This document shows positions 6,130-26,683 of a stretch of DNA of 51,004 nt, in pieces. The notes below the pieces were generated by a model, which did no database searches, was not told the origin of the DNA, and worked only from the letters and a program-made list of their open reading frames with translations. The DNA is from Actinocatenispora comari (GTDB lineage: Bacteria; Actinomycetota; Actinomycetes; Mycobacteriales; Micromonosporaceae). Position 1 is the first letter of the stretch. Each line of letters opens with the position of its first letter. A program made the position numbers and the translations under genes. Where the stretch lies: contig NZ_BOPO01000003.1 of assembly GCF_017312725.1 (NCBI RefSeq), forward strand, positions 1-51,004, given 5' to 3'.

Positions 6130-6879
6130 TCACGGCAGCAGGCGGGTGAGGTTCTCGCCGAGGACACGGGCGCGGTCCGCGGCCGGCAGTGGCCAATCGA
6201 GGATGCGCTCCAGTTCCACCTCGGGGACCGTGTACGGCGCATCCGTGGAGAACACGACGCGTTCCGGTCCGACTGAAGGATCGGCGCCGAAGCCGGACAG
6301 GACGGTGTCCCACGGCGCGTAGCTCGTGTCCGCCAGCAGGTTCGGCGCGTACCGCAGCGCAGGTATGGCGTCGATCCAGAAGTCGGTGGCGCCGCTGCGG
6401 CCCATGATGAACGTGACGTCCGGGTGGCGTCGGGCCAACGACGCGAGCGGCAGCGGCAGCGCCGTCGGTGGCGTACCGGTCCGCACGTATACCGGCCATC
6501 GCCAGTCGCAGGCCTTGCGCAGCAGCGGATCAAGCAGTCCGTCGTGCAGGTCGAAGCCCTGCAGCACGGGATCGACCGCGAGCGCCACCGCACCGGCGGA
6601 GCGGGCCCGGTCCAGTTCGGCGAGGGCGTCGGTGCCGCGCCATGGATTGGCCACCGCGTACGCGTACAGCCGCCCGCCGGATGCGGCCGCCGCCCCCGTG
6701 GTCAGCGCATTGCCTTCAGCGTTGTGGTAGGCGATGCACCGCTCCGGCGGGGAGATCAGCGCTGCGTCGATGCCGAGTCGGTCCATGGTCGCAAGCAGCG
6801 TGTGAAGCGGCAGCGCCGCTTCCCGGCACTCCCCCACCCGCACGTGCGCGTCGACCACCCGCGCCCCTGAGATCGTCAC
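6130..6879 (-). CDS. Amidohydrolase family protein, second PF04909-like copy
   Basis: 249 residues from the GTG at 6879, which overlaps the stop of the preceding amidohydrolase by 4 bp (translational coupling). It has TIM-barrel amidohydrolase features: VVDAHVRVGE at the N-terminus, HDGLLDPLLRKA, PVYVRTG, MGRSGATDF, and STDAPYTVPEVELERIL near the C-terminus, where the family has a metal-binding or catalytic Asp. The usual HxH after strand 1 is reduced to AHVR and the central His positions are replaced (YVRTG, MGRSG), so metal binding may be weakened or lost. Last gene of the large minus-strand cluster. Confidence 0.75.
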   Translation of the reverse strand: MTISGARVVDAHVRVGECREAALPLHTLLATMDRLGIDAALISPPERCIAYHNAEGNALTTGAAAASGGRLYAYAVANPWRGTDALAELDRARSAGAVALAVDPVLQGFDLHDGLLDPLLRKACDWRWPVYVRTGTPPTALPLPLASLARRHPDVTFIMGRSGATDFWIDAIPALRYAPNLLADTSYAPWDTVLSGFGADPSVGPERVVFSTDAPYTVPEVELERILDWPLPAADRARVLGENLTRLLP

Positions 6880-7766
6880 CACGGCTCCCTGGTGATCGCG
6901 TCGCTGAGACCGAGCGCGCCGAGCGCGTCGGCATGGATGATGTTCTCGATCAGCTCCGCCGGTACCCGCGGCAGCGCGGTGCCCTCGAGGATGTCGTTGA
7001 CACGCCTGATGCCGGCGATTGCCTCGCCGGTGTTGGCGATCGGGAAGTCCGAGCCGAGCAGCAGCTTGTGCGTACAGCCCCATTCGACCGCGGCCAGCAG
7101 CGACTCGTAGCACACCCACGGGCGCAGGTAGATCGACGAGACGTCGGCGTACACGTGCGGGTGCTTGCGGATGGTCACGACGGTTTCCTTGCCCCACGGG
7201 TGCCCCATGTGCGCCATCACGATGCGCAGTTCCGGGAACCGCAGCGCCACCTCGTCGGTGACCAGCGGGTAGGTGTACCGCAGGGGTGCGTGCCGGATCG
7301 GGGAGGCGCCCTGGTGGAACAGGATCGGCACACCGGTGCGCTCGGCCCAGCCGTACAGCGCGAGCGCCGGCTCGCCGAGCGGGTCGAATTCCTGATAGTT
7401 GGGGCCGAGCTTGATGCCGACCAGGCCCTCCTGGTACCAGTGGTCGGCCTGCTCGATCGCGTCGGGCCAGGTCGGGTTCACCGACATGAACCCGACCCGG
7501 CGCGACGGTGCGACCCGGGTGAACGCCAGCGTCGCCGGGTTGGTCTCCTCCGGCCGGTAGTCCAGTCCGGTGGAGGCCAACGGGTCGTCGACCGCGATGT
7601 TGAACACGATGGAGACGTCCGCGTCGGCCATCGCGGCGTCGTAGTCGTCCCACGAGTTCGTGGTCGTCACCGGTCGGTCGGTGCGCCACCCTTGGTAGGT
7701 CAGCCGGTCGGCGTCGGGCACCGGGCCGGTGTGCGTCGGGGTGTGCGCGTGGACGTCAACGATCAC
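6876..7766 (-). CDS. Amidohydrolase family protein (PF04909-like TIM barrel)
   Basis: 296 residues. The metal-binding HAHT motif is at residues 6-9, followed by LVGIKLGP, ILFHQG with a metal-site His, VMAHMGHPWGKE and LLLGSDFPI with the catalytic Asp. Relatives include lactone hydrolases, 2-pyrone-4,6-dicarboxylate hydrolase and non-oxidative decarboxylases. The role here is likely hydrolysis of a lactone or amide intermediate, or decarboxylation. It overlaps the next gene by 4 bp and follows the secreted protein gene by 74 bp, probably in the same operon. Confidence 0.85.
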   Translation of the reverse strand: MIVDVHAHTPTHTGPVPDADRLTYQGWRTDRPVTTTNSWDDYDAAMADADVSIVFNIAVDDPLASTGLDYRPEETNPATLAFTRVAPSRRVGFMSVNPTWPDAIEQADHWYQEGLVGIKLGPNYQEFDPLGEPALALYGWAERTGVPILFHQGASPIRHAPLRYTYPLVTDEVALRFPELRIVMAHMGHPWGKETVVTIRKHPHVYADVSSIYLRPWVCYESLLAAVEWGCTHKLLLGSDFPIANTGEAIAGIRRVNDILEGTALPRVPAELIENIIHADALGALGLSDAITREPW

Positions 7767-7840
7767 AACGGGTTCCTTGCCTTGTCGGTCAGAGTCTTGT
7801 CAGTCGGAGGATCGGCGTGCCGCGTTGGCTGCGCGGCACG

Positions 7841-9385
7841 TCATTGCCGGGCGAACTGGCGCGCGACGGTGCGGAAGATGCGGGTCGGTTCGTCCCGGTG
7901 GTAGACGAACACCGTCGCGTTGACATGTTGGCTGTTGCCGCTGATGGTCCAGGCGGACGGGTCCTCGAACCCCGGGTCCTTGATGCCGAGTCCGATCGAG
8001 GACAGGTCGTCGAACGTCGCGTCGACGTAGTAGTCACCGACACCCTGCTTCTCGTACAGCCGGAAGGCGATCTTGACCTGCTTCTTGCCCTTGACGAACT
8101 GGGTGACGTCCACCGGTCCCTGGGTGTCCGAACCGTTGACCCACATGAAACTGAACCAGTTGGTCACGTCGGACTGCCACACCACCTGATCATCGATCAG
8201 CACCTGCATGAAGTGGTAGCCGCCGAGCCCGCCGTAGTACGGGTCGCGCTGCCACCAGGACAACTCGTACCGCGGCGACTTCGGATCGACGGTGACCTCC
8301 TGGGATGCCTCGGCGTAGTCACCGGTCTTGGTACCCACGTGCGCCTGCACGGTCAGCGCGAGCCGCCCATCGCCCTGCCTCGGCCCCTGGCTCGGGTCGA
8401 TGAGGTTCTGGCCAGTCAACTGGGTGCCGTAGGAGATCACCCCGTCGATCTTGTGCTGCCGCGTGTAACGCATGCCCACGTTCAGGATGTCGTTGACGTA
8501 CCGTGCGGTTGGCGCAAGCGTGCTGTCCAGCTCGCGTCCCGAGTAGTCGAGCAGGACGACGCTCAGCTTCTTCGCGTTGGCAAGCGGCAGGATCTTGTTC
8601 AGGTTCTCGCTGACCGCCGAGGCGTCGTTGGTGTTGTTGTCGTGCCCGAGGTACGGGTAGACGACGCCGTCGATGACGTCGCCGTACTTGTCGTAGAACG
8701 ACGGGTCGACCGCAGTGTCGTAGTAGGCGATCGTGTAGAGCCCGAGCTTCGGGTTGATCGCCTTGGTGATCTGCCGCATCTGCGTCAGGTAGTCGTGGGT
8801 GAACAGCTTGGCGTTGTCTCCGATCAGGAAGTCGTCGATCGCCCATGCCACGACGTTCGGGTACTTCATCGACAGGTTCGCGACCTGCTTGGCCCAGGTC
8901 AGGAAGTCGGTCTCGTACGGCCGGGAGCAGCGCCCGGCGAGGTGCGCATCCTTGTTCGGGAAGCACTCGCTGGGTGGCGCGAGCCCAACCCAGACCAGGA
9001 TTCCCGCCCGCTGTGCGGCCGGCGCGAACTCGTTGACCAGGTCCGGCCAGTCGGTCGGCTCGTCCCACACCGTGTAGTAGAACGTGTTGACGTGCAGCGC
9101 TTTCAGCTTCTTGATCAGCCGTGGCGTGTCGATGTGCCGGTACCCGTCGGAACGCGGTTTGGCCTCTCGTACCTGGGTGCCGATCGTGTTGCCGCCGGGG
9201 TGTGTGGCGCGTACGCCGTCGGCCGGTACCCACGGCCGGGATGCGTCCCGAGAGGCGGGCAGTGCGGTGGTGTGTGCGGCCGGATGCTTCGCCGGCGATA
9301 CGGTGCGGGCCGCACTCGGTGCGGCACCGCCCGCGATCAGGGCGAGCATCGTCGCGACGGCGACGGCCAGGGGTGCTCTGCGCAT
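7841..9385 (-). CDS. Secreted glycoside-hydrolase-like TIM-barrel protein
   Basis: 514 residues with a Sec signal peptide (MRRAPLAVAVATMLALIAGG, cleavage near AARTV). The middle contains barrel-like strands with VNTFYYTVWDEPTDWPD, ILVWVGLAPP, VVAWAIDDFLIGDN and VYPYLGHDN, suggesting a glycosidase-like fold with acidic residues at strand ends. The C-terminal ~150 residues (WWQRDPYYGGLGGYHF, then FRLYEKQGVGDY) look like a beta-sandwich that could bind carbohydrate. No exact family is recognised. As a secreted enzyme inside a catabolic operon it may release the compound that the importers take up. Confidence 0.7.
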   Translation of the reverse strand: MRRAPLAVAVATMLALIAGGAAPSAARTVSPAKHPAAHTTALPASRDASRPWVPADGVRATHPGGNTIGTQVREAKPRSDGYRHIDTPRLIKKLKALHVNTFYYTVWDEPTDWPDLVNEFAPAAQRAGILVWVGLAPPSECFPNKDAHLAGRCSRPYETDFLTWAKQVANLSMKYPNVVAWAIDDFLIGDNAKLFTHDYLTQMRQITKAINPKLGLYTIAYYDTAVDPSFYDKYGDVIDGVVYPYLGHDNNTNDASAVSENLNKILPLANAKKLSVVLLDYSGRELDSTLAPTARYVNDILNVGMRYTRQHKIDGVISYGTQLTGQNLIDPSQGPRQGDGRLALTVQAHVGTKTGDYAEASQEVTVDPKSPRYELSWWQRDPYYGGLGGYHFMQVLIDDQVVWQSDVTNWFSFMWVNGSDTQGPVDVTQFVKGKKQVKIAFRLYEKQGVGDYYVDATFDDLSSIGLGIKDPGFEDPSAWTISGNSQHVNATVFVYHRDEPTRIFRTVARQFARQ

Positions 9386-9409: not shown

Positions 9410-10528
9410 TCAGGAGAATCGGTCGAGCAGGTCGGGGCGCGGCGTGACACCGAGCCCCGGGCGGTCGTTGATCCGGACTCGGGAACCGTTGCTGTCCAAC
9501 GGCTCTGCGAGAATGTCGTCGGTGTAGTAGTGCGCGCCGATGATGTCGGATGGCAGTTCGGTGGCAAGGTCGGGGATGGCGCAGGCGGCGTGGAGCTGGG
9601 CGGCGGCGCCGATACCCAGCTCGCCGTTGGAGCCGAGCAGTGAGCGGATCCCGAACGCGGAGGCGATCCGGGCCAGCTGCACCGCGCGCCCCGGGCCGCC
9701 GGCCTTGCCGATGTAGACCGACGCCACGTCCGCGGCGTCGGCGCGGATCACCCGGACCAGGTCGGCCAGTCCGAACACCGACTCGTCGGCCACGACCGTG
9801 ACGCCCAGCGCCCGGATGGCGCGCAGCCCGTCCAGGTCGTCGGCGGCGACCGGCTGTTCGACGAACGCCACGCCGTACGGCGCGAGCCCGGCCACCGCGC
9901 GTGCCGCCTCGGCGCGGTTCCAGCCACCGTTGGCGTCCACGCCGAGAAACGTGTCCGGCCCGACGAGTTCGCGAGCCCGGGCCACCCGCGCGAGGTCCCC
10001 GTCGACGCCGAGCCCGACCTTGACCTTGAATGCGCCGAACCCGGCGGCACGCGCGGCGTGGTACACGGTCTCCAGCACCGCGCCGTCGCCGGACAGCGAC
10101 AGCTTGATCGGAACCTCGGTGCGGTACGGGCCGCCCAGCGCCACCGCCAGCGGCACGTCGAGTACCCGGGCCCAGGCGTCCCACAACGCGGTGGCCACCC
10201 CTGCCTTGGTGAACGGGTTGCCGGCGAGCGCCCGGTCCATCGCCGCCTCCGCGGCGCCCACCGGCGCCAGCGGCATGCCGATCAGCACCGGCGTGAGCAC
10301 GGTGCGGATCAGGTGCGCGGCGGTGGTGCCGTCCTCGCCGCTCCACAGCGGTGTGGCGCTCACCTCGCCGTACCCGGTGATCTCGCGTCCGGAGTCGTTG
10401 CCGGCGATGATCCGGACCAGCAGGAAGTCGGATCGGTCGTGCGCGCCCTTGGCGCCGTGCACGGTCAGGGCCGGGTCGGCGGTCAGGCTCACTGGTGCGG
10501 TCTGCACCGCGCGGATCGTGTAGGTCAC
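9410..10528 (-). CDS. Enolase superfamily enzyme, muconate-lactonizing (MLE)-like subgroup
   Basis: 372 residues from a GTG at 10528 that overlaps the preceding stop by 4 bp. Superfamily catalytic residues are visible: KVK at 168-170, metal ligands Asp198 (VDANGGW), Glu224 (FVEQP) and Asp248-Glu249 (ADES), and Lys275 in YIGKAGG. The two-lysine layout matches the MLE subgroup (cycloisomerases, dipeptide epimerases, o-succinylbenzoate synthase). The enzyme would remove a proton alpha to a carboxylate. The neighbouring amidohydrolases and DapA-type lyase suggest an acid or lactone substrate. Confidence 0.88.
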   Translation of the reverse strand: MTYTIRAVQTAPVSLTADPALTVHGAKGAHDRSDFLLVRIIAGNDSGREITGYGEVSATPLWSGEDGTTAAHLIRTVLTPVLIGMPLAPVGAAEAAMDRALAGNPFTKAGVATALWDAWARVLDVPLAVALGGPYRTEVPIKLSLSGDGAVLETVYHAARAAGFGAFKVKVGLGVDGDLARVARARELVGPDTFLGVDANGGWNRAEAARAVAGLAPYGVAFVEQPVAADDLDGLRAIRALGVTVVADESVFGLADLVRVIRADAADVASVYIGKAGGPGRAVQLARIASAFGIRSLLGSNGELGIGAAAQLHAACAIPDLATELPSDIIGAHYYTDDILAEPLDSNGSRVRINDRPGLGVTPRPDLLDRFS

Positions 10529-11301
10529 TGCGGCCACCCTCCCAGCAGGTCGCGGGGGTTGTCGTACAGCACCCGGCGCAGCGTCGTGTCGTCGACGCCC
10601 CAGCGGGTGATCTCGTGCGCGCGGGCCACCGCGTACGCCTGGCCGACTTGGTCGGAGAGCCCCGCATCGGAGCCGAACAGCACCCGCTCTGGCGGGCAGC
10701 GATCGATGATGTGTCGACCGGCGTAGGGCGGCACCCCGCACAGGCAGATGTACAGGTTCGCGGTCTCGGTGACCGCGGCGATCGCCTCCCGCCAGGTGTC
10801 GTGCAGCCCGGCGTGCCCGAGTACCACCGGTACCGTCGGGTGCCGGCGGGCGAACGCGGCGATCTGGGTAGCCGTCGCGTATGGCGGGGTGCCGTCGTGG
10901 CAGAGCACGCTCCCGCCGTGCGCTGCGACGACCTCGGCGATCGGGTCGAGGCTCGGCTCGTGCATCGACACGCCCTGCAGCCACGGGTGGATCTTCAGCC
11001 CGCGGATGCCCAGGGTGCCGAAGCAGCGCTCCATCTCCTCGGCGGCACCCGGGTAGCGCGCGTTCACGGTGCCGAACCCGACCATCCGGTCGGGGTCGGC
11101 GGCGACGAACTCGGCGAGTCGGTCGTTGGCCTCCGGCGTAGCGTGAAACAGCCCGTCGTGGCTGAGCACCACCGCCGCGCGGATGCCGGCCGAGTCCAGG
11201 AACGCAGTGAAGTCGGCCGGCGTGAACGCCGCGCCCGCCAGCCAGGACGCGTGGTCCCAGGCCGGGGTGTGGGTGTGGAAGTCGATGATCGGTATGTCCA
11301 C
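10525..11301 (-). CDS. Amidohydrolase family protein (PF04909-like)
   Basis: 258 residues. It begins MDIPIIDFHTHT with the metal-binding HTH pair at residues 9-11. It also has GLKIHPWLQG, VLCHDG, VVLGHAGLHD and VLFGSDAGLSD with the catalytic Asp. This is the short, complete form of the ACMSD/LigI-like amidohydrolase clan. The ATG lies 10 bp after the creatininase-like gene, and the stop overlaps the GTG of the enolase-superfamily gene. It probably acts just before or after that enzyme, for example as a lactonase or decarboxylase. Confidence 0.85.
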   Translation of the reverse strand: MDIPIIDFHTHTPAWDHASWLAGAAFTPADFTAFLDSAGIRAAVVLSHDGLFHATPEANDRLAEFVAADPDRMVGFGTVNARYPGAAEEMERCFGTLGIRGLKIHPWLQGVSMHEPSLDPIAEVVAAHGGSVLCHDGTPPYATATQIAAFARRHPTVPVVLGHAGLHDTWREAIAAVTETANLYICLCGVPPYAGRHIIDRCPPERVLFGSDAGLSDQVGQAYAVARAHEITRWGVDDTTLRRVLYDNPRDLLGGWPQ

Positions 11302-11311: not shown

Positions 11312-12055
11312 CTACAGGTCGCGGGCGAGGGTCACGAGCCGGTCAGCCAGGGCGTCGGCGAGCGCGCCGAACCAGGCTGCCCCGTCGGCGCTGGCCGCGT
11401 CGGCGGGGCGGTCGGTGTAGCCGTCGATGGTGTGCCACAGCTGCGGCGTGTGCACGGTCACGTTCGCCGCCTCCGGTACCGCGGGCTGCGCGACCCGGTC
11501 CGGCAGCGTGCCGACCAGCTCCGGGTGCAGATGGGCGATCAGCGCGCTCTCGAAGCGCCCGGCGTGTCCCGGCACGTTGGGTCGGTCGGCGGCGAAGGTG
11601 TGGTGTGGGAAGAGTTCCCAGTAGTCGAGGTACGCAATGGCGAGGCCGTGCCGGGTCGCCGCGCTTGCCGCAGCCGAGTGGCACGGCCCGCGGTTACCGC
11701 CGTGCCCGTTGACGAGCACGAGCCGGCGCCCGCCGTCGGCGGCGACCGAGCGGGCCAGGTCGTTCAGTACCGCCGTCGTGGTCTCTGGGGACAGCGACAG
11801 GGTGGCGCCGAAGGCGAAGTGGTGGTCTGATGCGCCGAACGGCAGGGTCGGCGCTAGTACCAGGTCACGCGCCGAGCTTTCCGCCGCCCGATGCACGGCC
11901 GCCGCTGCGACCGCCTCGGCCAGCATCGCGTCGGTGCCGGTGGGCAGGTGCGGGCCGTGCTGCTCGACGGTGCCGACCGGCAGCACGACGAGCGCCTCCG
12001 GCAGTACCGCGGCGAGCCGCTCCCGATCGGTGCGCTCCCACATCCACGTACTCAC
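11312..12055 (-). CDS. Creatininase family amidohydrolase
   Basis: 247 residues with the family signatures TVEQHGPHLPTGTD near residue 30 (Glu, His and Asp metal ligands), NGHGGN near 115 and HAGRFESALIAH near 165. Members open cyclic amides or cleave formamide-type bonds, as in creatininase and MftE. A cyclic amide or other amide substrate is therefore plausible for the pathway. It follows the Gfo/Idh/MocA gene by 46 bp. The family's second metal-binding Glu region (E-x-S) is present as FESA. Confidence 0.88.
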   Translation of the reverse strand: MSTWMWERTDRERLAAVLPEALVVLPVGTVEQHGPHLPTGTDAMLAEAVAAAAVHRAAESSARDLVLAPTLPFGASDHHFAFGATLSLSPETTTAVLNDLARSVAADGGRRLVLVNGHGGNRGPCHSAAASAATRHGLAIAYLDYWELFPHHTFAADRPNVPGHAGRFESALIAHLHPELVGTLPDRVAQPAVPEAANVTVHTPQLWHTIDGYTDRPADAASADGAAWFGALADALADRLVTLARDL

Positions 12056-12101: not shown

Positions 12102-13079
12102 TCACTCGTGTCCTCCCGCCATGGCTACGATCCGTTCGCTCAGCGCCAGTCCGGCCAGTCCCTCGTCGAGGCCGGGCACCGCGGTGTCGCGCCGGCCGGT
12201 CACCAGGTCGGCGAAGGCGTCGAGCTGGCGGTCGAAGGAACGAGTCGTGCGGTCGCCGGGGAACCGTGCCACCCGCGTCTCGTCCCGCGTGCGCAGCTGG
12301 AGGTCGAACGTGAACCCGTCGAGCACCGCGTACCCGTCGGCGCCGAGCACGCTGACCTCGCAGCGCGGCAGGGCGTCGGTCCACCAGCCGAACTCGGTGA
12401 GCGCGGTCGTCCCGTCCGGCCAGCGCAGCCGCGCGCCACCGAGGTTCGGCGCGCCGAGCCCCGGCTCGGTGGCGAGCGCCCACGCGTCGGCCACCTCGCT
12501 CGGCCCGCCACCGAGCAGGTAGGCCAGCCAGTCGAACAGATGCGCGCCCTCGTGCACGACCGGCGCCCCATGCTCGAGTGTGCCGAGCATTCGGCGGGCA
12601 TACCGCCCGTCGGCGGCGCGCGGCTCGTCGTAGATGTGCGCCCGGATGAGCAGCGGTGAGCCGAGCAGCCCGCCGGTGATCCAGTCCCGCAGCCGTTCCA
12701 GCGCAGGATCGTGCCGGTAGGTCAGCCCGACCTGCAACCGTTCGTGCGGTGCCGTGGTGAGCTGTTCGACCTCGGCCACGCTGGTGCCGAGCGGCTTCTC
12801 CGCCAGCACGTACTTGCCGGCCGCCAGCGCGTCGCGGACCAGTCCGGTGGTGACCCACGGCGGTGTGGCGACAACGACCGCCACGAGGCTCGGATCTGCG
12901 AGCACCGGGGTCAGGCTGGCGTGGGTCGCCGCCTCCGGTACCAGGCGGGCGGCCGCGGCGAGCCGCTCCGGCAGCGGGTCGACGAGTGCGGCCACCTCGA
13001 CCCTCTCCGAGCGCAGCAGCGCCGGCAGGTGGGCGTGTGTGGCGATGTCGCCGAGCCCGGCGAGCGCCAGCCGGATCAC
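12102..13079 (-). CDS. Gfo/Idh/MocA family oxidoreductase
   Basis: 325 residues. An N-terminal Rossmann fold starts MIRLALAGLGDIA; the EKPLGTSVAEV motif near residue 95 supplies the conserved Lys. The C-terminal alpha/beta domain includes HEGAHLFDWLAYLLGG, with the typical HxxxxxDW pattern. The family oxidises or reduces sugars, inositols and related polyols using NAD(P). The ATG overlaps the stop of the upstream ABC ATPase by 4 bp. It suggests that the operon's substrate contains a secondary hydroxyl group. Confidence 0.9.
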   Translation of the reverse strand: MIRLALAGLGDIATHAHLPALLRSERVEVAALVDPLPERLAAAARLVPEAATHASLTPVLADPSLVAVVVATPPWVTTGLVRDALAAGKYVLAEKPLGTSVAEVEQLTTAPHERLQVGLTYRHDPALERLRDWITGGLLGSPLLIRAHIYDEPRAADGRYARRMLGTLEHGAPVVHEGAHLFDWLAYLLGGGPSEVADAWALATEPGLGAPNLGGARLRWPDGTTALTEFGWWTDALPRCEVSVLGADGYAVLDGFTFDLQLRTRDETRVARFPGDRTTRSFDRQLDAFADLVTGRRDTAVPGLDEGLAGLALSERIVAMAGGHE

Positions 13080-13939
13080 GATGTCGCCTCCCTCGACTCC
13101 GGTGCAGCCGCTCGGGCAGGCACCCGCGGGATCGCGTCGATCAGGGTGCGGGTGTACTCCTCGCGCGGGTGGGCGAAAAGCTCGTCCCGCGGCGCCTGCT
13201 CGATGATGCGGCCGCGGTGCATGACCGCGATCTCCGGCGCCATGTACCGGACCACAGCAAGATCATGCGACACGAACAGGTAGGTCAGGCCCAGTTCGGC
13301 CTGTAGCGAGCGGAGCAGGTTGAGAATCTGCGCCTGCGTGGCCACGTCGATCGCCGACACCGCCTCGTCGAGTACGACGAGGTCTGGGTGCAGCGCGATG
13401 GCGCGGGCGATCGACACTCGCTGACACTGTCCGCCAGACAGCTCGGTGGGCCGGCGCGACGCGTACGAGGTGGGCAGGCCGACGAGCTCCAGCAACTCGT
13501 CGACCCGGCGCCGCCGCGCGGTGACGTCACCGGCACCGTGTACGGCAAGCGGGAGGCCGATGATCTGCGCGACGCTCTTGCGCCGGTTCAGCGAGCCGAC
13601 CGGGTCCTGGAGCACGACCTGCATGTGCCGCCGCTGCTGCCGCAGCTCCCGGCCGCGCAGGCGGGTCAGCTCCGTGCCGCGGAACCGCACCGTGCCGGCC
13701 GTCGGGCGTAGCAGCCCGAGCAGCAGCGAGGTCAGCGTCGACTTGCCGCACCCCGACTCGCCGACCAAGCCGAAGGTGGTACCGCTGCGCACCGTCAGGC
13801 TCACCTCGTCGACCGCGCGGGTGCCGGGAAAGTCCATCACCAGACCATCGGCGGCCAGCAGGACATGGTCCTCCCGCGCCGGCGGTCCCACCTCGGGCCG
13901 CTGATCCGGTTCGGGGGCACGACTTCGGTGCTCGCTCAT
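13076..13939 (-). CDS. Oligopeptide/dipeptide-type ABC transporter ATP-binding protein (OppF/DppF-like)
   Basis: 287 residues from the ATG at 13939, overlapping the previous stop by 4 bp. Walker A is GESGCGKS (60-67), the signature is LSGGQCQRVSIARA, Walker B reads LVVLDEAVSAID, and the switch His is in VSHDLAV. Walker B departs from the common LDEPVSALD at two positions (Pro to Ala, Leu to Ile). The catalytic Glu is kept, so it should be active. The C-terminal part (HPREEYTRTLIDAIPRV) is typical of the Opp/Dpp group. Fifth gene of the importer set. Confidence 0.92.
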   Translation of the reverse strand: MSEHRSRAPEPDQRPEVGPPAREDHVLLAADGLVMDFPGTRAVDEVSLTVRSGTTFGLVGESGCGKSTLTSLLLGLLRPTAGTVRFRGTELTRLRGRELRQQRRHMQVVLQDPVGSLNRRKSVAQIIGLPLAVHGAGDVTARRRRVDELLELVGLPTSYASRRPTELSGGQCQRVSIARAIALHPDLVVLDEAVSAIDVATQAQILNLLRSLQAELGLTYLFVSHDLAVVRYMAPEIAVMHRGRIIEQAPRDELFAHPREEYTRTLIDAIPRVPARAAAPESREATS

Positions 13940-18221: not shown

Positions 18222-18240
18222 GAAGCCTACCTTCCGTATT

Positions 18241-18276
18241 TCGAAGATAGATTCAAGATTTGGAAAATAATATTCC
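18241..18276. promoter_or_regulatory. AT-rich operator pair before the ABC-importer operon
   Basis: Two dyads stand out in very GC-rich surroundings: TCGAAGATAGATTCAA (18241-18256) and GGAAAATAATATTCC (18262-18276), 20 bp upstream of the binding-protein start. The first matches the perfect palindrome before the MHS transporter (26729-26744) at 13 of 16 positions. IclR regulators bind such short AT-rich palindromes, and an IclR gene is adjacent. A common regulator for both halves of the cluster is therefore inferred. Confidence 0.6.
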
Positions 18277-19138: not shown

Positions 19139-19175
19139 GCCACCCCTCACCGATTACACCTGTCCGATGCAGAGC

Positions 19176-19574: not shown

Positions 19575-19627
19575 GGCTCCTCCGAAGGTCGAGGGCGGCC
19601 GCCGGTCGGGCGGCCGCCAGGGCATGC

Positions 19628-20554
19628 TCAGGACAGGTCGGGAAGCCGGTCGGCGAACTCAGCGAGGAAGCGGTCGACCATCGCGACCTCCTCCGCGTCG
19701 AGGCGGTGTGCCGGCGCCCGGCAGTACGCGCTACCGAACAGGCCGCGCCGCTGCGAGATCAGCTTTTCGGCCGCGACGATCAGCTCCGAGCCGAGCATCC
19801 AGTACGAGATGTACGGCAGGAACTGGCGATGCAGGTCGAACGCCGCCTGCTCATCACCGGCCGCGTACAGGTTCCAGACGTCGAGGTACAGCTCGGTGAA
19901 CGAGCAGCCCGGCTGCACACCGACCGCACCGCGTCGCAACGCGTCCGGTAGCTGCACGCCTGCGTACCCGACCATCGCCGGAAGGACCGGATCCTGACGC
20001 ATCAGGTCGGCGATGAACGGGCCGGGCGGGGTCGACTCGACCTTCACCATCCGCACGTTCGGGCGTTCGGCAGCGATCGCGGCGATCGACGCCGCGTCGA
20101 GCGCGGTGCCGGTCTGCTCCGGCGCGTACTGCACGACGATCGGAGTTTCCGGCACCGCCGCGGCGACCGTCTGGACGTGCGCATGGATGTCGGCCACCGA
20201 CGGCCCGAGCTGGTAGGGGGGAAGCAGGTTGACAGCGTCGGCACCGGCGTCGACGAGCCGGCGCGCGTGGTCGGCGGCGAGCCGCGTGGCGTGGTCCTGG
20301 ACCGCGACCACGGCGGCCACATCGTCTCGAGGTCCGGTGCGCTTGAGCAGGATCGTGTTGAGTCGGTCCCGCTCGTCGGTGGTCAGCTTGAGAAACTCCG
20401 AGGCGTACCCCGGGAACATCACGCTGCTCACCCCGCAGCCGAGCACGTAGTCCACGACGCGCGCAAATCCGGTCTCGTCGAGCGCTCCGTCGTCGTGGAA
20501 CGGCACCTCCAGCACCGGCGACACGCCCCTGATCAGCTCCGCCGCGTCCGTCAT
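19628..20554 (-). CDS. Dihydrodipicolinate synthase/N-acetylneuraminate lyase (DapA) family protein
   Basis: 308 residues from the ATG at 20554, which overlaps the preceding stop by 4 bp. The TIM barrel has the family's catalytic pair: Tyr143 in VVQYAPEQTG and the Schiff-base Lys171 in RMVKVES. Residues G-Y-A-S-E near 49 replace the usual GTTGE loop, and the GxxxG of the C-terminal part differs from true DapA. It is therefore probably a catabolic aldolase or dehydratase for a 2-keto acid, not a lysine-biosynthesis enzyme. It fits after an enolase-superfamily or dehydrogenase step. Confidence 0.88.
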   Translation of the reverse strand: MTDAAELIRGVSPVLEVPFHDDGALDETGFARVVDYVLGCGVSSVMFPGYASEFLKLTTDERDRLNTILLKRTGPRDDVAAVVAVQDHATRLAADHARRLVDAGADAVNLLPPYQLGPSVADIHAHVQTVAAAVPETPIVVQYAPEQTGTALDAASIAAIAAERPNVRMVKVESTPPGPFIADLMRQDPVLPAMVGYAGVQLPDALRRGAVGVQPGCSFTELYLDVWNLYAAGDEQAAFDLHRQFLPYISYWMLGSELIVAAEKLISQRRGLFGSAYCRAPAHRLDAEEVAMVDRFLAEFADRLPDLS

Positions 20555-21594
20555 CGGTTCTGCCCTCCCGCATCGATGCTGTTCAGTCGGGCCGCCAGCC
20601 GGCGGTCCCGATCCGCCCGGGCACGCCGGGCCGTCTCGCCGGGCCACTCGTACACGCCGTGGCCGGACTTGGCCCCACACCTTCCGGCCGCGGCGAGTTC
20701 GACCAGGTTCGATGGCGCGGCGAACCGCTCTCCGAGGTGCTCGGCGAGATAGTCGAGGATCGCCCGGTACACGTCGAGTCCAGCCAGGTCGGCGATCTCG
20801 AACGGCCCGTAGTCGCCCAGCCGGAAGCCGAACGAGCCACGCACGATCGCGTCGATGTCCGGCGCGGTCGCGACCCCCTCGGCCAGGCATCGAAACGCCT
20901 CCGCGACCATCGCGAACTGCAGCCGGTTGCCGACGAACCCGGCCGTGTTGGCGGTCACCGCCGGCCGCTTGCCCAGCGCCGTGAGCCAACCCAGCAGCGC
21001 CGCGACGCGATCCGGGGCGACCGCATCAGTGCGCACCACCTCGACGCACGGCACCAAGTACGGCGGGTTGTACCAGTGCATCCCGAGTACTCGTGCCGGT
21101 GCCCCCGCCGCCTCAGCGAGCAACCCGATGTCGTACGAGGAGGTGTTGCTCGCGAGCGTCGCACCACGCGGTGCGTGCGCTCCGATCGCCTGCCACACGG
21201 CGCGCTTGAGCGCCAAGTCTTCCGGCACCGCCTCGATCACGAGCGCGGCGCCGGCCACCGCGTCGGCCGTGTCACCGACCGGCGTGACGAGATCGACCAC
21301 AGCCGCCGCCGTGTCGGAGAGCCCGTCGGCAATGGCGTCCCGGCCGGCGCGGGCCAGCTCAAGGGTGCGGTCGGCCAGCCGCACCGGCACGCCGCCAGAG
21401 GCGAACACCCGCGCGATGCCGTGCCCCATCGTCCCGGCCCCGACGACCGCGACCGACTCCGGCAGTGTCTGTCCGGCCGCGGCAGCCACGTCTGCGGCGC
21501 CGCCGCGGTTCGGCCGGACGACCCGGCCGTCCGTCTGGTCGGGCTGCGGCGTGCCTGGGTTCCCTTGCCGGGCGGCAGGTTCCTGGTTGGTCAT
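20551..21594 (-). CDS. 3-hydroxyacyl-CoA dehydrogenase family protein
   Basis: 347 residues with a ~45-residue N-terminal extension rich in Pro, Gly and Gln. The NAD-binding fold has VVGAGTMGHGIA (GxGxxG at 52-57), then EAVPEDLALKRAVW, SNTSSYDI, MHWYNPPYLVPCVEVV and TAGFVGNRLQFAMVAEA, with the catalytic His in the MHWYNP segment. The WYNPP (not HFFNP) form resembles single-domain enzymes acting on non-CoA acids such as L-carnitine or L-gulonate. It overlaps both neighbours by 4 bp. Confidence 0.88.
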   Translation of the reverse strand: MTNQEPAARQGNPGTPQPDQTDGRVVRPNRGGAADVAAAAGQTLPESVAVVGAGTMGHGIARVFASGGVPVRLADRTLELARAGRDAIADGLSDTAAAVVDLVTPVGDTADAVAGAALVIEAVPEDLALKRAVWQAIGAHAPRGATLASNTSSYDIGLLAEAAGAPARVLGMHWYNPPYLVPCVEVVRTDAVAPDRVAALLGWLTALGKRPAVTANTAGFVGNRLQFAMVAEAFRCLAEGVATAPDIDAIVRGSFGFRLGDYGPFEIADLAGLDVYRAILDYLAEHLGERFAAPSNLVELAAAGRCGAKSGHGVYEWPGETARRARADRDRRLAARLNSIDAGGQNR

Positions 21595-22436
21595 GGCGCC
21601 ACCATCCCGGCGGAGAGGTCGATGTCGGCCGCGCTCAGTCCCGGCATGGCCAGCATCGCAAGCACTGCGGCGGCGACCTCGTCTGCCGTGAGCAGCCGGC
21701 GCAGCGCAGCGCGGCCAACGAACGCATCCCGCGCGGCCTCGACGCTGGTCCCGGTCCGGTTCGCCTCCAGCCGGAAGTTGCGGTCCATCCGCGGCCCGTC
21801 GACCGGGCCGGGCGACAGCGAATTGACCCGTACTCCGGTCTCACCGACCTCGACTGCCAGCGTGCGGGTCAGGCCCAGTACAGCCATCTTGGCCGCGCAG
21901 TACGGGCTGCGCCCGGCGAGCGGGCGCTTACCGGAGACCGACGCCAGGTTGATCACGTCGCCGCGACCAGCCTCGACCATTGCCGGCAGGAAGGCCCGGC
22001 ACACCAGGTAGGTGCCGCGCACGTTGACCGCGAACACCTCGTCCCACTGCGTCGGCGTCACCTCGGCCAGCGGCGCGACCGGCCCCGGGATGCCGGCGTT
22101 GTTGACGAGGATCGATACGTCCTCGGCGGCGAGATCGACGGTCAGCGCGTCGACCTGGGCCGGGTCGGCGACGTCGCACACCACGCCGCGGGCCGCCGTG
22201 CCGTCGGCGACCGCCGCATCCAGCGTGTCCCGGTTCCGGCCGGTGACCACGACCCGCGCGCCGGCGCGGCTCAATGCCCCGGCGATCGCGTAGCCGAGTC
22301 CGCGGCCGCCGCCGGTGACCAACGCGGTACGCCCGGCCAACGGTGCGGTTGCGGCAGTGTCGCCCGGCGGCACGGCGGCCCTCCCACGACCGGGCGCCGC
22401 CGTAGCCGCAGGTGGCTTGCCGGATGTCGCCGTCAC
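21591..22436 (-). CDS. SDR family oxidoreductase
   Basis: 281 residues from the GTG at 22436 that overlaps the upstream stop by 4 bp. The first ~32 residues are an Ala/Pro/Gly-rich extension. The motif TGGGRGLGYA is followed by NNAG, catalytic Ser in LASVSGKRP and YCAAK; the C-terminal part is SLSPGPVDGPRMDR. It oxidises an alcohol or reduces a ketone with NAD(P). Tightly coupled between the HisD-like and hydroxyacyl dehydrogenase genes. Confidence 0.9.
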   Translation of the reverse strand: MTATSGKPPAATAAPGRGRAAVPPGDTAATAPLAGRTALVTGGGRGLGYAIAGALSRAGARVVVTGRNRDTLDAAVADGTAARGVVCDVADPAQVDALTVDLAAEDVSILVNNAGIPGPVAPLAEVTPTQWDEVFAVNVRGTYLVCRAFLPAMVEAGRGDVINLASVSGKRPLAGRSPYCAAKMAVLGLTRTLAVEVGETGVRVNSLSPGPVDGPRMDRNFRLEANRTGTSVEAARDAFVGRAALRRLLTADEVAAAVLAMLAMPGLSAADIDLSAGMVAP

Positions 22437-23752
22437 GCGCGATCCAAGACGTGGTCGCTCCAGGGCAGCGGCGTACCGTGGTGCGCCGCGGCGCGCACGT
22501 CGCCGCTGCGGGCGTGCCCCTCGAACAGCTCGACCCGAGCGGCCCGGCCGCACACCTCGCCCAGCCGGGCGCTCGTCGCCGGGTCGGTGATCTCCTGATA
22601 GGTGACGGTCTTGAGGTACTTGCCGACCCACAGCCCGCCGGTGTAGCGGGCCGCGCCGCGGGTCGGGAGCACGTGGTTGGTGCCGATGACCTTGTCTCCG
22701 TAGGAGACGCAGGTACCAGCGCCGAGAAACAGCGCGCCGTAGTCCCGCATCGCGCTGAGCGCCGCGCGCGGCTCGGCGGTGAGGATCTCGACGTGCTCGG
22801 AGGCGAACGTGTCGGCCAGCGCGTACGCCGCGTCGGGGTCGTCGACGACGTGGATCTGGCCGTGGTCACGCCAGGCCGGCGCGGCCATGTCGTTGGTTGG
22901 CATGCCCGGAAGCAGCGCGTCGATGTGGCCGAGTACGGCGGTGCCGAGTCGTTCGCTCGTCGTGATCAGCACCGCTGGGGAGTCCGGGCCGTGCTCGGCT
23001 TGGGAGAGCAGGTCGACCGCGACGACGAACGGGTCGGCCGTCTCGTCGGCGACGACGAGGATCTCGGTCGGCCCGGCGAACAGGTCGATGCCGACCTCCC
23101 CGAACAGCTGCCGCTTCGCCTCGGCGACGTACGCGTTGCCGGGGCCGGCGATCAGATCGACCCGGCCGATCGTCTCGGTACCCAGGGCGAGCGCCGCGAC
23201 CGCCTGGACCCCGCCAAGCAGGTTGATCTCGTCGGCGCCGGCCAGGTGCATGGCGGCGATGGTGGCGGCGGGGATCTCGCCTCGGATCGGCGGCGTGCAG
23301 GCGGCGACCCGTTCGACCCCAGCGACCTTGGCGGTCACGATCGTCATGTGCGCCGACGCGGTCAGCGGGTACCGCCCGCCCGGCACGTACGCGCCGGCCG
23401 CGGCGACCGGGATGTTCTTCTGCCCCAACCGAACCCCTGGCAGGGTCTCGACCTCGAAGTCACTCAGCGACTCGCGCTGGTGGGTGGCGAAGGTTCGTAC
23501 CTGGTCCTGCACGAACCGGATGTCGTCGAGCACCTGGCTCGGCACGCCGTCGATGATCCGCTCGATCTCGGCCGGCGACAGCCGGAACGACTCCGGCGAC
23601 CAGCCGTCGAAGCGTAGCGAGTAGTCGCGTACCGCCGCGTCACCGCGTAGTCGCACGTCGGCGATGATCGCCGCGACCCGCTCGCGTACCCCGGCGTCGC
23701 CTCCGGGCGCCGTGGTCTCCGCGGGCTTCTTGAGCATCCGGCTCGTGGTCAT
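22433..23752 (-). CDS. Histidinol dehydrogenase-like protein (HisD/HpsN family), probably catabolic
   Basis: 439 residues from the ATG at 23752. It carries the HisD fold markers GAYVPGGRYPLTASAHM, LIAGPGNAYVAEAKRQLFG and FAGPTEILVVAD, zinc-ligand candidates in SQAEHGPDS, and the catalytic Glu-His in FASEHVEIL. Related non-histidine enzymes such as sulfopropanediol dehydrogenase HpsN oxidise a primary alcohol to a carboxylate in two NAD-dependent steps. No other his genes are near, and the neighbours are catabolic, so a similar alcohol-to-acid oxidation is likely. Confidence 0.87.
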   Translation of the reverse strand: MTTSRMLKKPAETTAPGGDAGVRERVAAIIADVRLRGDAAVRDYSLRFDGWSPESFRLSPAEIERIIDGVPSQVLDDIRFVQDQVRTFATHQRESLSDFEVETLPGVRLGQKNIPVAAAGAYVPGGRYPLTASAHMTIVTAKVAGVERVAACTPPIRGEIPAATIAAMHLAGADEINLLGGVQAVAALALGTETIGRVDLIAGPGNAYVAEAKRQLFGEVGIDLFAGPTEILVVADETADPFVVAVDLLSQAEHGPDSPAVLITTSERLGTAVLGHIDALLPGMPTNDMAAPAWRDHGQIHVVDDPDAAYALADTFASEHVEILTAEPRAALSAMRDYGALFLGAGTCVSYGDKVIGTNHVLPTRGAARYTGGLWVGKYLKTVTYQEITDPATSARLGEVCGRAARVELFEGHARSGDVRAAAHHGTPLPWSDHVLDRA

Positions 23753-23796
23753 GCCCCACTCATCCCCTGTCTCGTGGTTGTCTTGCTGTGCGCCGG

Positions 23797-25371
23797 TCAG
23801 GCGAGAAAGCGGTCCAGCACGTTGCGGGTGATCGTCGCGGCGGCGGCGTCGACCGGTACCGCGGTCGACCAGGTGATGGAACCGGCCGCGAACACCTCGC
23901 CGCCGCTCGCGGTGGTCAGGTGCACGAGCTCGGCGCCGCCGTCGTCGACGTTGGTGCCGCGCGCGAGCACGACCGCACCGTCCGGCGTGCCCGCCCCGGT
24001 CTTGTCCGTCTCGTGACCAGACGCGCCGCCGGCGCATCGCTCGTGCAGCGACGTCGTCCCGAACAGGTCACCGGCCGCCAGCCCGGTACCGGCGAACGCC
24101 CAGTGCTTCTCCTCGACGACCCGGTACGGCGCCGCGGTCATCGCGCCCGCGCTGGTGAAGACGACGCCGAGCAGGGCGCTGGTCGGGCGGTAACTGCGCG
24201 CCATCCGGCTCTCGTACGGCCCGTTCTCGACCGCCTCGGTCCGGAACCGCAGCGCGTCGCCGACGAACTCGACCTCGCAGTCGGCGCCGTTGCCGCCGAG
24301 GTAGGCGAGCTTCCCGCCACGCTCGTGCACCCAGGACCAGACCCGGTCGTACATATCGCGTGACCAGTACTCGGGGTGGGTGTTGAGCACGAGGACCCGG
24401 TAGGCGTCCAGGTCGAGGGTGCCGTCATGCAGGTGCGCGTCGGCGTAGAGGTCGTGTCCGTATCCGTTGCGCTCCAGCCAGCTCAGCAGCCGCCACTCGG
24501 CCGAGGCGAGATGGCAGGGCTGCCGGCCGCGGATCGCGTCCAGCGGTCCCTCGTCAGCGCCGAGCTGGTTCAGCGGCTCGGGCCGGTCGAACGACAGCGG
24601 CGGATAAGCGTCGTCGGCGAACTGATGCTCGGAGAACGACGACTCCTGGTATCTCGGCAGTTCCAGGCGCGGCACGAGCGCCGGCTCAGCTGGCAGCCCG
24701 GCTGCATTGACGTAGTTGCTGCGCCCGCCGAAGTTGTTGTACGCGTTCCAGGTGTTGGTCGAGGCGAGTACCGCGATCCGGGCACGCGGCACGCGCGGTG
24801 CGACGACCCACGGGAACGAGAACCGCGCGCCGGACTCCCCCTCCACGTGGAAGTAGTAGAGACCCCCGCGCTCCGGCGCCGCCACGTACTGCCTGTGGTT
24901 CGGGTCGACATAGCCGCGTTCGTTGAAGTGCACGCCGTCGCGCGTGTAGTCACCGTCCGGCGTAACCTGCACGGTTGAGCGCGGTGCGTGCTCGTCGAAC
25001 CAGCCGATGATGCGTTCCGGCCCCACCTCGGCGCCGTAACGTCGCAGGCTCAACCGATACGGTTCGGGGCTGTGGATCCGGAACTCGCCGGTGCCGCCGG
25101 CGAGCGTCCACTTCGGCCAGACGTACCCGTAGATCCTGTCCGCCAGCAGCCGGAACCGGCGGGGTCGGTCGCCGATCTCGACGTCGACGTGCTTGGCGCC
25201 GTAGCCGTCCCGGGCAAGGGTCACCCGGTAGCCGCCCGGCGGTATGTCGAGGCGTACCGCACCGGACGCGGTCGAGGAGGTCACCCAGGTGCTTGTCCCG
25301 TCGCTCACCTCGACCGCGACGCCCGCGAGCGCCAGGTCCCGTTCGTCGCTGACGTATCCGATCGGATCCAT
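23797..25371 (-). CDS. N,N-dimethylformamidase large-subunit-like protein
   Basis: About 524 residues from the ATG at 25371, two bases after the preceding stop. The N-terminal ~90 residues form a beta-rich domain (IPPGGYRVTLARDGYGAKHVDVEI). The main part carries VLASTNTWNAYNNFGGRSNY, LSFDRP, VLVLNTHPEYWSRDMYDRV and AYLGGNGADCEVEF, the pattern of the dimethylformamidase beta subunit (DMFA2-type). That enzyme hydrolyses an amide with an iron centre. No small (alpha) subunit is seen nearby. It is a candidate for the first amide cleavage of the pathway. Confidence 0.8.
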   Translation of the reverse strand: MDPIGYVSDERDLALAGVAVEVSDGTSTWVTSSTASGAVRLDIPPGGYRVTLARDGYGAKHVDVEIGDRPRRFRLLADRIYGYVWPKWTLAGGTGEFRIHSPEPYRLSLRRYGAEVGPERIIGWFDEHAPRSTVQVTPDGDYTRDGVHFNERGYVDPNHRQYVAAPERGGLYYFHVEGESGARFSFPWVVAPRVPRARIAVLASTNTWNAYNNFGGRSNYVNAAGLPAEPALVPRLELPRYQESSFSEHQFADDAYPPLSFDRPEPLNQLGADEGPLDAIRGRQPCHLASAEWRLLSWLERNGYGHDLYADAHLHDGTLDLDAYRVLVLNTHPEYWSRDMYDRVWSWVHERGGKLAYLGGNGADCEVEFVGDALRFRTEAVENGPYESRMARSYRPTSALLGVVFTSAGAMTAAPYRVVEEKHWAFAGTGLAAGDLFGTTSLHERCAGGASGHETDKTGAGTPDGAVVLARGTNVDDGGAELVHLTTASGGEVFAAGSITWSTAVPVDAAAATITRNVLDRFLA

Positions 25372-25372
25372 G

Positions 25373-26683
25373 TCAACTCCCCGCTTCCACCGTCGCCGCA
25401 CGCCGCGCGGCGAGTGACCGACCTGCGCTCTCCGGTACCGCGATGATCGCCGCGGCGCTCAGCACGCAGCCGCCGATCATGTACAGGCACACGCCCCACG
25501 ACGCGCCGCCGGCCGCGGCGGTCAGCGCGCTTGCGATCATCGGGGCGAAGCCACCGGCCAGCACCGCGGTCAGCTGGTAGCCGAGGCCGACCCCGGTAGC
25601 GCGGGCGGACGTGCCGAACAGTTCGGACAGGATCGTCTGGGACAGCGCCGACATGGAGATGACGCACACCGAGAAGCCGAGCGTCATTCCGAGGTAGATC
25701 AGCGCCGGCTTCCCGGACGAGAACATCGCGAAGATCGGGAAGATCAGCACCGCCAGGGCGATGCAGCCGCCCAGGAACACCGGTTTCCGCCCGACCCGGT
25801 CGGACAGGATGCCCCAGGTCGGTGCCAGCACGATCTGCACCCCGGACGCGATCATCGTCGCGGTCAACGCGACCGACGCCGGCGAGCCTCGGTCCTTCAG
25901 GAACGCTGGCCCGTACACCGTCAGCACGTAGCCGCCGATGCTGTTGGCGAAACCGAACAGCACGCCGAGCACCAGCGGCCTGGGCCGACGCAGTACCTCC
26001 CACAGCGGCAGCCGGCGCTTCACCACCTGCTCCCGGTCAGCGGCGAACACCGGCGTCTCCGGTACCCGGGACCGGATGATCAGCCCGGCGACGAGCAGCA
26101 CGACACTAAGCCAGTACGGCAGCCGCCAACCCCAGGTGAGGAACTGATCGCCGGGCAGGGACGACACGAGGCTCATCAGCCCGGAGGAGATGAACAGCGC
26201 GACACCCGAGCCGCTGAGCAGCAACGCACCGAACAGGCCGCGCCGGTCTGCGCGCGCGTGTTCGACGGCGAGCGCGGTCGCGCCGCCCATCTCGCCGCCG
26301 GTCGAGAACCCTTGGGCGAGCCGGAGGACGACGAGCAGTATCGGCGCGGCGACACCGATCGAGCGGTACCCGGGGAGCACGCCGATCAGGAACGTCGAGA
26401 CACCCATCATCATGATCGTCAGGACGAGCGCCTTCTGCCTGCCGACCCGGTCGGCGATGTGGCCGAGCACGATGCCGCCGATCGGCCGCAGGATGAACCC
26501 GACCGCGAAAGCGGCGAAGGAGTACAGCTGCCCGGCAAGCGGGCTGGAGTCGGGGAAGAACAGCTTCGGGAACACCACAGCCGCGGACAGCCCGAACAGG
26601 TAGTAGTCGTAGTACTCCAGGAGGGTGCCGACGGAGGCCGCGAGCGCGGCCTTGCGCCGTACCACTGTCTGCTCCGTGCTCAC
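25373..26683 (-). CDS. MFS transporter, metabolite:H+ symporter (MHS/ProP-ShiA-like) type
   Basis: 436 residues, 12 predicted membrane helices. Near the N-terminus SVGTLLEYYDYYLFG resembles the GxxxEWYDF start of MHS carriers. The loop-2/3 motif GHIADRVGRQKAL and LRLAQGFSTGGEMGGA in helix 4 are diagnostic. Members import organic acids, betaines and aromatic acids with protons. First gene of the upstream half of the catabolic cluster, 46 bp downstream of a 16-bp perfect palindrome. It gives the regulon a second importer. Confidence 0.93.
   Translation of the reverse strand: MSTEQTVVRRKAALAASVGTLLEYYDYYLFGLSAAVVFPKLFFPDSSPLAGQLYSFAAFAVGFILRPIGGIVLGHIADRVGRQKALVLTIMMMGVSTFLIGVLPGYRSIGVAAPILLVVLRLAQGFSTGGEMGGATALAVEHARADRRGLFGALLLSGSGVALFISSGLMSLVSSLPGDQFLTWGWRLPYWLSVVLLVAGLIIRSRVPETPVFAADREQVVKRRLPLWEVLRRPRPLVLGVLFGFANSIGGYVLTVYGPAFLKDRGSPASVALTATMIASGVQIVLAPTWGILSDRVGRKPVFLGGCIALAVLIFPIFAMFSSGKPALIYLGMTLGFSVCVISMSALSQTILSELFGTSARATGVGLGYQLTAVLAGGFAPMIASALTAAAGGASWGVCLYMIGGCVLSAAAIIAVPESAGRSLAARRAATVEAGS

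Follow-up and report, generated by a model that had tools for sequence, protein, structure and literature searches.

A conserved catabolic gene system in Actinocatenispora comari

The 51,004-nucleotide stretch analysed here (Actinocatenispora comari, assembly GCF_017312725.1, contig NZ_BOPO01000003.1, positions 1 to 51,004; hereafter the window) contains, at 6130-26683 on its minus strand, 20 genes of one direction that form a conserved and apparently co-regulated catabolic system. We give an even chance to the reading that these genes are a regulon of two units under the control of its own IclR protein, serving to import an oxidised, probably N-acylated, carbohydrate-derived sugar acid and to degrade it oxidatively without sugar kinases. 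An earlier note, made from the sequence alone, had reported the run of 20 genes and its families, and both were confirmed, the Pfam and NCBIfam families agreeing with those named (Table 1), with the MHS assignment below the TIGR00883 cut-off. Its view of the cluster as catabolic in make-up, coupled to import and linked to an IclR regulator was supported, as was its statement that no described pathway has the full set: a description of this gene set was not found in the open-licence PMC literature searched, where neither dimethylformamidase together with creatininase nor 'beta-phenylalanine acylase' gave a match.

All 20 genes were found in the same order in Actinocatenispora rupis, with 86-99% identity. 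The core of the system, comprising IclR, the Gfo/Idh/MocA dehydrogenase (Gfo), the creatininase-like hydrolase, three PF04909-type proteins (AH2a, AH2b and AH2c), the MLE-type enzyme (MLE) and the DapA-type protein (DapA), was also found in Amycolatopsis anabasis, Microlunatus speluncae and nine genomes of one genus, which we denoted as g97. The gene set thus co-occurs beyond this strain, which excludes the outcome, given in the earlier note as refuting, that its homologues never do so. A. anabasis has the run IclR-SBP-OppB-OppC-OppDF-Gfo-Creat-AH2a-MLE-AH2b-AH2c-DapA, in the order of the window except that the TIM-barrel-like protein (TIM) lies apart and DapA comes last. HisD-SDR and the gene of a 3-hydroxyacyl-CoA-dehydrogenase-like enzyme (HCDH, 45% identity) are close to this core, MHS-DMFA2 is on a different contig, and RidA was not recognised in the stretches examined. 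The HisD-SDR-HCDH run recurs in Microlunatus: in M. speluncae, SBP_bac_1-type importer genes lie ~4 kb away from HisD (77%), SDR (42%) and HCDH (42%), and after these importer genes come the whole core, an aldose-epimerase-like gene, TIM and Opp genes of weak similarity. This genome has TIM relatives at six places (L200-L205). Furthermore, MHS adjoins DMFA2 in A. rupis, in genome G004 and in six Amycolatopsis loci (L036-L040, L080), five of which continue with MLE-DapA-AH2b-creatininase-IclR.

AH2b, the best conserved core protein, shows 70-80% identity in core-bearing loci beyond Actinocatenispora. A search with AH2b against 394 genomes of the class (E ≤ 1e-50) gave 15 matches including the window's own genome, nine of them in g97, which belongs to the same class as A. 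comari and to a different order. In all nine g97 genomes the fetched stretch held IclR, Gfo, creatininase, AH2a, MLE, AH2b, AH2c and DapA (in L104 the MLE match spans 0.7 of its length); this count covers genomes with a close AH2b and is not a frequency in the genus. One of them, G376, carries a second, divergent set (L113) of DapA, AH2c, AH2a, Gfo, creatininase and AH2b at 33-42% identity, accompanied by GntR- and AraC-type regulators and by FAH-family and DegT-family genes.

Operator-like sites and transcription units

A perfect 16-bp palindrome, TCGAATATATATTCGA, was found 45 bp upstream of the MHS start, with a 3-mismatch copy before the gene of the solute-binding protein SBP5; these two were its sole matches in the window (expected 0.00). 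A longer, 26-bp form derived from both sites has zero mismatches at both. With up to three mismatches, a 20-bp part of it occurs at two places only in the 7.96-Mb genome, one of which also matches in the opposite strand; the reversed 20-bp control pattern gave 0 matches. It should be noted that the 20-bp pattern was drawn from the two cluster sites themselves, so its informative part is the absence elsewhere in the genome. A looser 14-mer gave 15 rows at 11 distinct places in this genome, three at the cluster sites and eight elsewhere. Because of the two operator-like sites, the single run drawn in the earlier note is probably two transcription units, one of eight genes from MHS to IclR, which is the last gene of that unit, and one of 12 genes from SBP5 to AH2c. 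The IclR protein of the cluster would control both units through these candidate operators.

Carbohydrate-related genes in g97

In seven of the nine g97 loci, DapA is followed downstream by an SBP_bac_1 gene and two permease genes, which we take to be a sugar importer of the CUT1 type, and the other side holds a RidA-like gene, an 803-aa protein without a Pfam family and an FG-GAP protein. In the two other loci, L106 and L107, the core has as neighbours permease genes, TIM, an aldose-epimerase-like gene and a protein with an F5/8-like domain. Pfam calls were made on the L103 copies for the former type and on the L106 copies for the latter; the 803-aa protein of L103 had no Pfam match at E ≤ 1, and its family was found in 7/9 g97 genomes.

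A 14-mer, TTCRAHATWYCGAA, occurs at 25 places in the nine g97 genomes, and its reversed-pattern control at 0. At 24 of the 25 it lies 23-280 bp before the predicted start of DapA, of SBP_bac_1-type genes or of the 803-aa family (an unassigned open reading frame (ORF) also starts near five of these, once closer). The 25th place, in G376, falls within a predicted SBP ORF, at its 5' end; the start of this ORF was possibly set too far upstream. At two places a GH43/FG-GAP gene then follows the 803-aa relative, GH43 being assigned by Pfam at one and by 64% identity to a GH43 protein at the other. A run of SBP, PhoD, F5/8, permease, TIM and epimerase genes was counted as a member of the system because TIM is in it. 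Since TTCRAHATWYCGAA was fitted to sites already seen, its presence at the known loci is in part circular; outside the stretches scanned for those sites lie eight of the 25 places, and seven of these eight precede genes of the system. Three TIM or AH2a genes of M. speluncae also have a TTCRAHATWYCGAA-like site, just upstream of TIM or of AH2a-AH2c-TIM (L200, L202, L204). As a loose background, five stretches fetched for other reasons (L140, L168-L171) lacked core enzyme families and contained SDR-, LacI- and OppF-like matches plus the 803-aa, FG-GAP and GH43 families.

The position of these operator-like sites before DapA, sugar-importer-type genes and the 803-aa family, twice with GH43 next, suggests that the substrate is likely carbohydrate-derived. 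The earlier note had proposed a nitrogen-containing acid or sugar-acid conjugate, and the sugar side of this proposal was strengthened by relatives, where the same 14-mer precedes runs that contain SBP_bac_1-type importers, an aldose-epimerase-like gene and GH43 genes.

The DMFA2-like protein and nitrogen in the substrate

The AlphaFold2 (AF2) model of the DMFA2-like protein, built from 26 sequences, had a pLDDT of 89 and a pTM of 0.91. Its nine best Foldseek matches were N-acetyl-(R)-beta-phenylalanine acylase (8huy, 8i59) and dimethylformamidase (E ≤ 2.9e-18, TM 0.52-0.59 by query length; next match E 9e-6), the top one being the N-acyl-beta-amino-acid acylase. Dimethylformamidase (DMFase) has a 2-Tyr-1-carboxylate iron site and a catalytic His, according to excerpts of PMC7686228; the fold is common to it, to the acylase and to the DMFA2-like protein, and the His and Glu of the active site appear to be shared as well, since H519 and E521 of DMFase have H332 and E334 of the DMFA2-like protein as their aligned counterparts. 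However, the DMFA2-like protein is shorter than dimethylformamidase, there is no small-subunit gene among the 20, and the two iron-binding Tyr were not placed by the alignment: Y211 fits DMFase Y399 by spacing only, and Y220 and Y241, invariant in 26/26 sequences, were not placed.

Genomes were scanned for DMFA2 with an alignment of the window protein and one relative, which yielded 50 loci (L082, L083 and L084 with a partial match). At ≥35% identity and ≥60% coverage, the partners found were AH2b in 15 loci, MLE in 13, creatininase in nine, IclR in seven, DapA in six and HisD in three; at least one of MLE, AH2b, creatininase, DapA, HisD and Gfo was present in 20/50 loci and at least two in 13/50. 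Elsewhere, DMFA2 loci contain an M20 deacylase-type gene (L078), an AstE/AspA-type gene (L065), an amidase gene (L116, Pseudomonadota) and a class III aminotransferase gene (L083, Chloroflexota). A verrucomicrobial (L045) and an acidobacterial locus (L067) combine DMFA2 with HisD and one common family, which is GH123-like by Pfam in L067. An archaeal relative (47% identity) was found on the Haloferax gibbonsii plasmid pHGLR3 (L117), in a region with IclR, two ThDP-binding proteins, aminotransferase IV, an M81 peptidase, an ABC importer and an aldehyde dehydrogenase.

These neighbours (aminotransferase, M20, AstE/AspA and amidase genes), the acylase as best fold match, the Opp-type importer and the matches of MLE to N-acylamino acid racemases would also suit a catabolic pathway for a non-carbohydrate amide, for instance a peptide-like compound or an N-acyl (beta-)amino acid, with MLE acting as a racemase. 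We consider this unlikely: in g97 the SBP_bac_1-type importer, DapA and GH43 runs are headed by the same operator-like sequence, an aldose-epimerase-like gene occurs in the TIM runs, and no aminotransferase gene was found among the 20 by Pfam.

The fold matches and neighbours of DMFA2, along with RidA, make nitrogen in a sugar-derived substrate plausible, and an N-acylated substrate is possible. A likeness exists to the GlcNAc1A pathway of chitin oxidation (OngB, OngC, OngD, KdgK), which cleaves the amide of an N-acetyl sugar acid, yields a 2-keto-3-deoxy acid and cannot support growth without a RidA protein, whereas the enzyme families, the KDG kinase step, the MurR/RpiR-type regulator and the SSS transporter of that pathway differ from the cluster (excerpts of PMC9537276). 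The nitrogen reading is less certain than the sugar reading and rests on families with widely varying substrates.

Organisation of the cluster and its surroundings

The coordinates of the 20 genes and of both operator-like sites are collected in Table 1. Overlap counts depend on the start codons picked among possible ones, and the table uses those picks. The earlier note had counted at least ten 4-bp overlaps or near-overlaps. Exact 4-bp overlaps, with ATGA or GTGA starts, are possible at nine genes (SDR, HCDH, DapA, OppB, OppC, OppF, Gfo, MLE and AH2c); what else comes near is one 8-bp overlap (OppD) and gaps of 1 bp (DMFA2), 2 bp (RidA) and 10 bp (AH2a), with gaps of 24-89 bp at the remaining genes. 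Pfam scans used ORFs taken from the first possible start.

Table 1 Genes and operator-like sites of the cluster, in minus-strand order
Feature	Position	Strand	Remarks
Operator-like site before MHS	26719..26744	-	shared 26-bp sequence; similar site in A. rupis
MHS-type MFS importer	25373..26683	-	PF07690; TIGR00883 381 bits vs cut-off 443 (below)
DMFA2-like protein	23797..25371	-	PF20254 (DMFA2_C); predicted metal-dependent amide hydrolase
HisD/HpsN-family dehydrogenase	22433..23752	-	PF00815; best PDB match HpsN; separate clade with GRYP[L/M]
SDR dehydrogenase	21591..22436	-	PF00106; 4-bp overlap with HisD-like gene
3-hydroxyacyl-CoA-dehydrogenase-like enzyme (HCDH)	20551..21594	-	PF02737, PF00725
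DapA-type lyase or dehydratase	19628..20554	-	PF00701; Lys171 in at least 97% of 16 sequences
RidA	19176..19625	-	PF01042 (Ribonuc_L-PSP); alternative start 19574, 51 bp further in
IclR regulator	18311..19150	-	PF01614, PF09339; 99% identity in A. rupis
Operator-like site before SBP5	18231..18256	-	shared 26-bp sequence; similar site in A. rupis
SBP_bac_5 solute-binding protein (SBP5)	16638..18221	-	PF00496; LTGC lipobox by eye
OppB-type permease	15634..16641	-	PF00528, PF19300
OppC-type permease	14765..15637	-	PF00528, PF12911
OppD-type ATPase	13936..14772	-	PF00005, PF08352
OppF-type ATPase	13076..13939	-	PF00005
Gfo/Idh/MocA dehydrogenase (core)	12102..13079	-	PF01408, PF22725
Creatininase-family hydrolase (core)	11312..12055	-	PF02633, E 1e-52
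AH2a, PF04909 (Amidohydro_2) amidohydrolase (core)	10525..11301	-	HxH, two further His and Asp conserved
MLE-type enolase-superfamily enzyme (core)	9410..10528	-	PF13378, PF02746 (MR_MLE)
TIM-barrel-like protein, beta-rich C-terminal part	7841..9385	-	signal-like N terminus by eye
AH2b, PF04909 (Amidohydro_2) amidohydrolase (core, best conserved)	6876..7766	-	HxH, two further His, Asp
AH2c, PF04909-type protein	6130..6879	-	three of the four presumably usual His replaced (HVR, VRTG, GRSG)

Outside the cluster, a carboxylesterase gene (27277-28953, true start by eye probably ~27463) is divergent from MHS; it was not recognised upstream of the A. rupis cluster, as judged by ORF size. An LD-carboxypeptidase (S66) gene lies on the plus strand at 4162-5094, ~1 kb beyond the cluster end, and a beta-helix protein with a weak GH141 insertion-domain match at 41678-43651.

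TIM had no Pfam match. The alternation of beta and alpha elements was read from a single-sequence AF2 model of low quality (pLDDT 43), and a 7-sequence profile searched against the PDB gave PslG only, at E 6.5 and 7.2. The C-terminal part of TIM recurs in heparinase II/III-like proteins of two genomes (L134:8653-12252, L135:7539-11186); one of the two genes adjoins Opp-type importer genes and the other lies ~4 kb away from such genes.

Cluster enzymes and known pathways

The closest solved relative of the HisD-like protein is HpsN, the DHPS 3-dehydrogenase, whose motif GRY(A/S)H contains the sulfonate-binding His126 (excerpts of PMC11382572). The zinc and catalytic residues are common to both, the HisD-like clade keeping QAEH, EH, DK and the C-terminal His in 6/6 sequences. 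However, all six have GRYPL or GRYPM, in which His126 is replaced by Leu or Met. An HpsN activity of this protein, called a HisD/HpsN-like oxidase in the earlier note, was therefore rejected, and sulfonate oxidation is not predicted because GRYP[L/M] replaces GRY(A/S)H. A second PF00815 protein, on contig C16 of the same genome, scored 481 bits as against 452 for the cluster protein, to which it is 35% identical, and its gene is probably the HisD of the histidine pathway. Vitamin B6 degradation was also rejected as a function, as HCDH reached 196 of the 500 bits required for FHMPC dehydrogenase.

In MLE, K170 and K172, the three acids D200, E226 and D250, and E305 were conserved in at least 97% of 25 sequences, and K277 is Met in four and Glu in one of 26 aligned rows. 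The protein stayed below the cut-off for muconate/chloromuconate cycloisomerase (TIGR02534, 185/335 bits). The creatininase-like protein was below the curated cut-offs for creatininase (83.9/235 bits), MftE (103.5/172) and IolN (32.5/245).

AH2c keeps the first His and the Asp alone of those positions that we take to be usual in PF04909-type proteins, both in the window protein and in nine g97 sequences; among its 11 aligned relatives, one (L113:3-803) retains HxH and resembles a different paralogue. AH2c gave no Pfam match when scanned as the long ORF 6130-7689, and its 11-sequence profile found 5-carboxyvanillate decarboxylase in the PDB (E 7.9e-10).

The best PDB match of DapA was L-2-keto-3-deoxyarabonate (L-KDA) dehydratase (7c0c, E 1.9e-19). 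The non-phosphorylative L-arabinose route uses a Gfo-type dehydrogenase, so that this enzyme type and an L-KDA-dehydratase-like DapA are common to that route and the cluster. The cluster differs in having MLE and the PF04909-type proteins and in having no IlvD-type dehydratase among its 20 genes.

The cluster could be a variant of the oxidative hexuronate pathway of uronate dehydrogenase (Udh), galactarolactone isomerase (Gli), galactarolactone cycloisomerase (Gci) and KdgD. Its series of a dehydrogenase, an amidohydrolase-superfamily lactone enzyme, a lactone-acting lyase and a final dehydratase, as given in excerpts of PMC6353982, is comparable with that of the cluster. KdgD, the dehydratase, is of the DapA type. 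Heparinase-like proteins with the C-terminal domain of TIM in two genomes would also fit. However, DapA scored 46.7 bits with the KdgD model, which has a cut-off of 374. Among the PDB matches of MLE, 4ggb, which we take to be Gci, reached 89 bits as against 142 for the muconate lactonizing enzyme 3i4k, so that Gci is not its nearest relative. Galactarolactone isomerase was not named among the 18 PDB matches of the AH2c profile or the 39 of the AH2b profile, a comparison of names only in which AH2a was not searched. The GH43 genes in g97 likewise argue against a hexuronate variant, and the lack of any aldehyde-dehydrogenase family gene among the 20 (Pfam), which a ketoglutarate-semialdehyde step would need, counts both against it and against the sugar-acid regulon proposed here. 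In addition, the cluster has a creatininase-like protein, DMFA2, RidA, a HisD-like protein, HCDH, two more PF04909-type proteins and IclR-type operators that the hexuronate pathway does not have. Membership in the galactarolactone pathway was rejected on the KdgD and Gci comparisons, despite similar superfamilies, and we regard a hexuronate variant as decidedly unlikely.

Weighing the two-unit regulon

Besides the missing aldehyde dehydrogenase, several observations speak against a two-unit regulon for a sugar acid. None of the operator patterns used had a match upstream of MHS or IclR in five Amycolatopsis loci, or in the core loci of A. anabasis and Microlunatus. Five of the 14 other AH2b-bearing genomes (G383, G415, G452, G470, G530) have no core nearby, their neighbours being only weakly MLE-, IclR- or SDR-like (25-41%). 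The 803-aa family was not found in the window's genome at E 1e-20. TIM, which according to the earlier note possibly frees the substrate outside the cell, does accompany the system in other genera, yet was found in just 5/9 g97 genomes. Among the DMFA2 loci, 30/50 have none of the six partner families (15 of the 50 loci are shorter than 15 kb), and Gfo, AH2a, AH2c and TIM were found at the partner threshold in 0/50, the A. rupis copies of these four lying beyond the fetched flank. DMFA2 therefore also occurs apart from this system, and the nitrogen in the substrate proposed by the earlier note has become less certain.

The absence of core partners from most fetched DMFA2 loci and the separate contigs of MHS-DMFA2 and the core in A. 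anabasis would be expected if several unrelated operons merely lay side by side. DapA, RidA and creatininase-like genes are also found in biosynthesis, as a biosynthetic cluster would require. Either explanation is very improbable: one operator-like sequence heads both units and, at the stringency used, has no other place in the genome; the core and its links are the same in three named genera and in g97; and the 20 genes include two importers and, by Pfam, zero export families.

Proposed pathway and implications

Under the sugar-acid regulon, IclR would bind both candidate sites and be released by a pathway compound. TIM may act extracellularly, with a glycan or glycoconjugate as its target, and MHS and the Opp-type importer would bring in the resulting products. 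DMFA2 would then take the acyl group off the nitrogen, and Gfo, followed by the PF04909-type and creatininase-like hydrolases, would account for oxidation and for opening of a ring or lactone. Abstraction of the alpha-proton by MLE would lead to a 2-keto-3-deoxy acid, which DapA would dehydrate or cleave; RidA would clear an imine if nitrogen is lost, and the HisD-like enzyme, SDR and HCDH may oxidise the fragments.

With slightly less than even confidence, we propose that the cluster encodes a new actinobacterial pathway for a natural glycan or sugar acid that carries an amide, with its own operator, candidate extracellular families without Pfam matches (TIM-like, and the 803-aa family with GH43 neighbours) and an additional functional class within the HisD/HpsN fold. 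If true, this would be a complete catabolic route that was not found described in the literature searched, and the regulator with its short operator would provide a handle that marks the genes of the system genome by genome. It would also bring to light two uncharacterised candidate extracellular protein families and allow functions to be assigned jointly in the crowded superfamilies of MLE, PF04909, DMFA2, creatininase and HisD.

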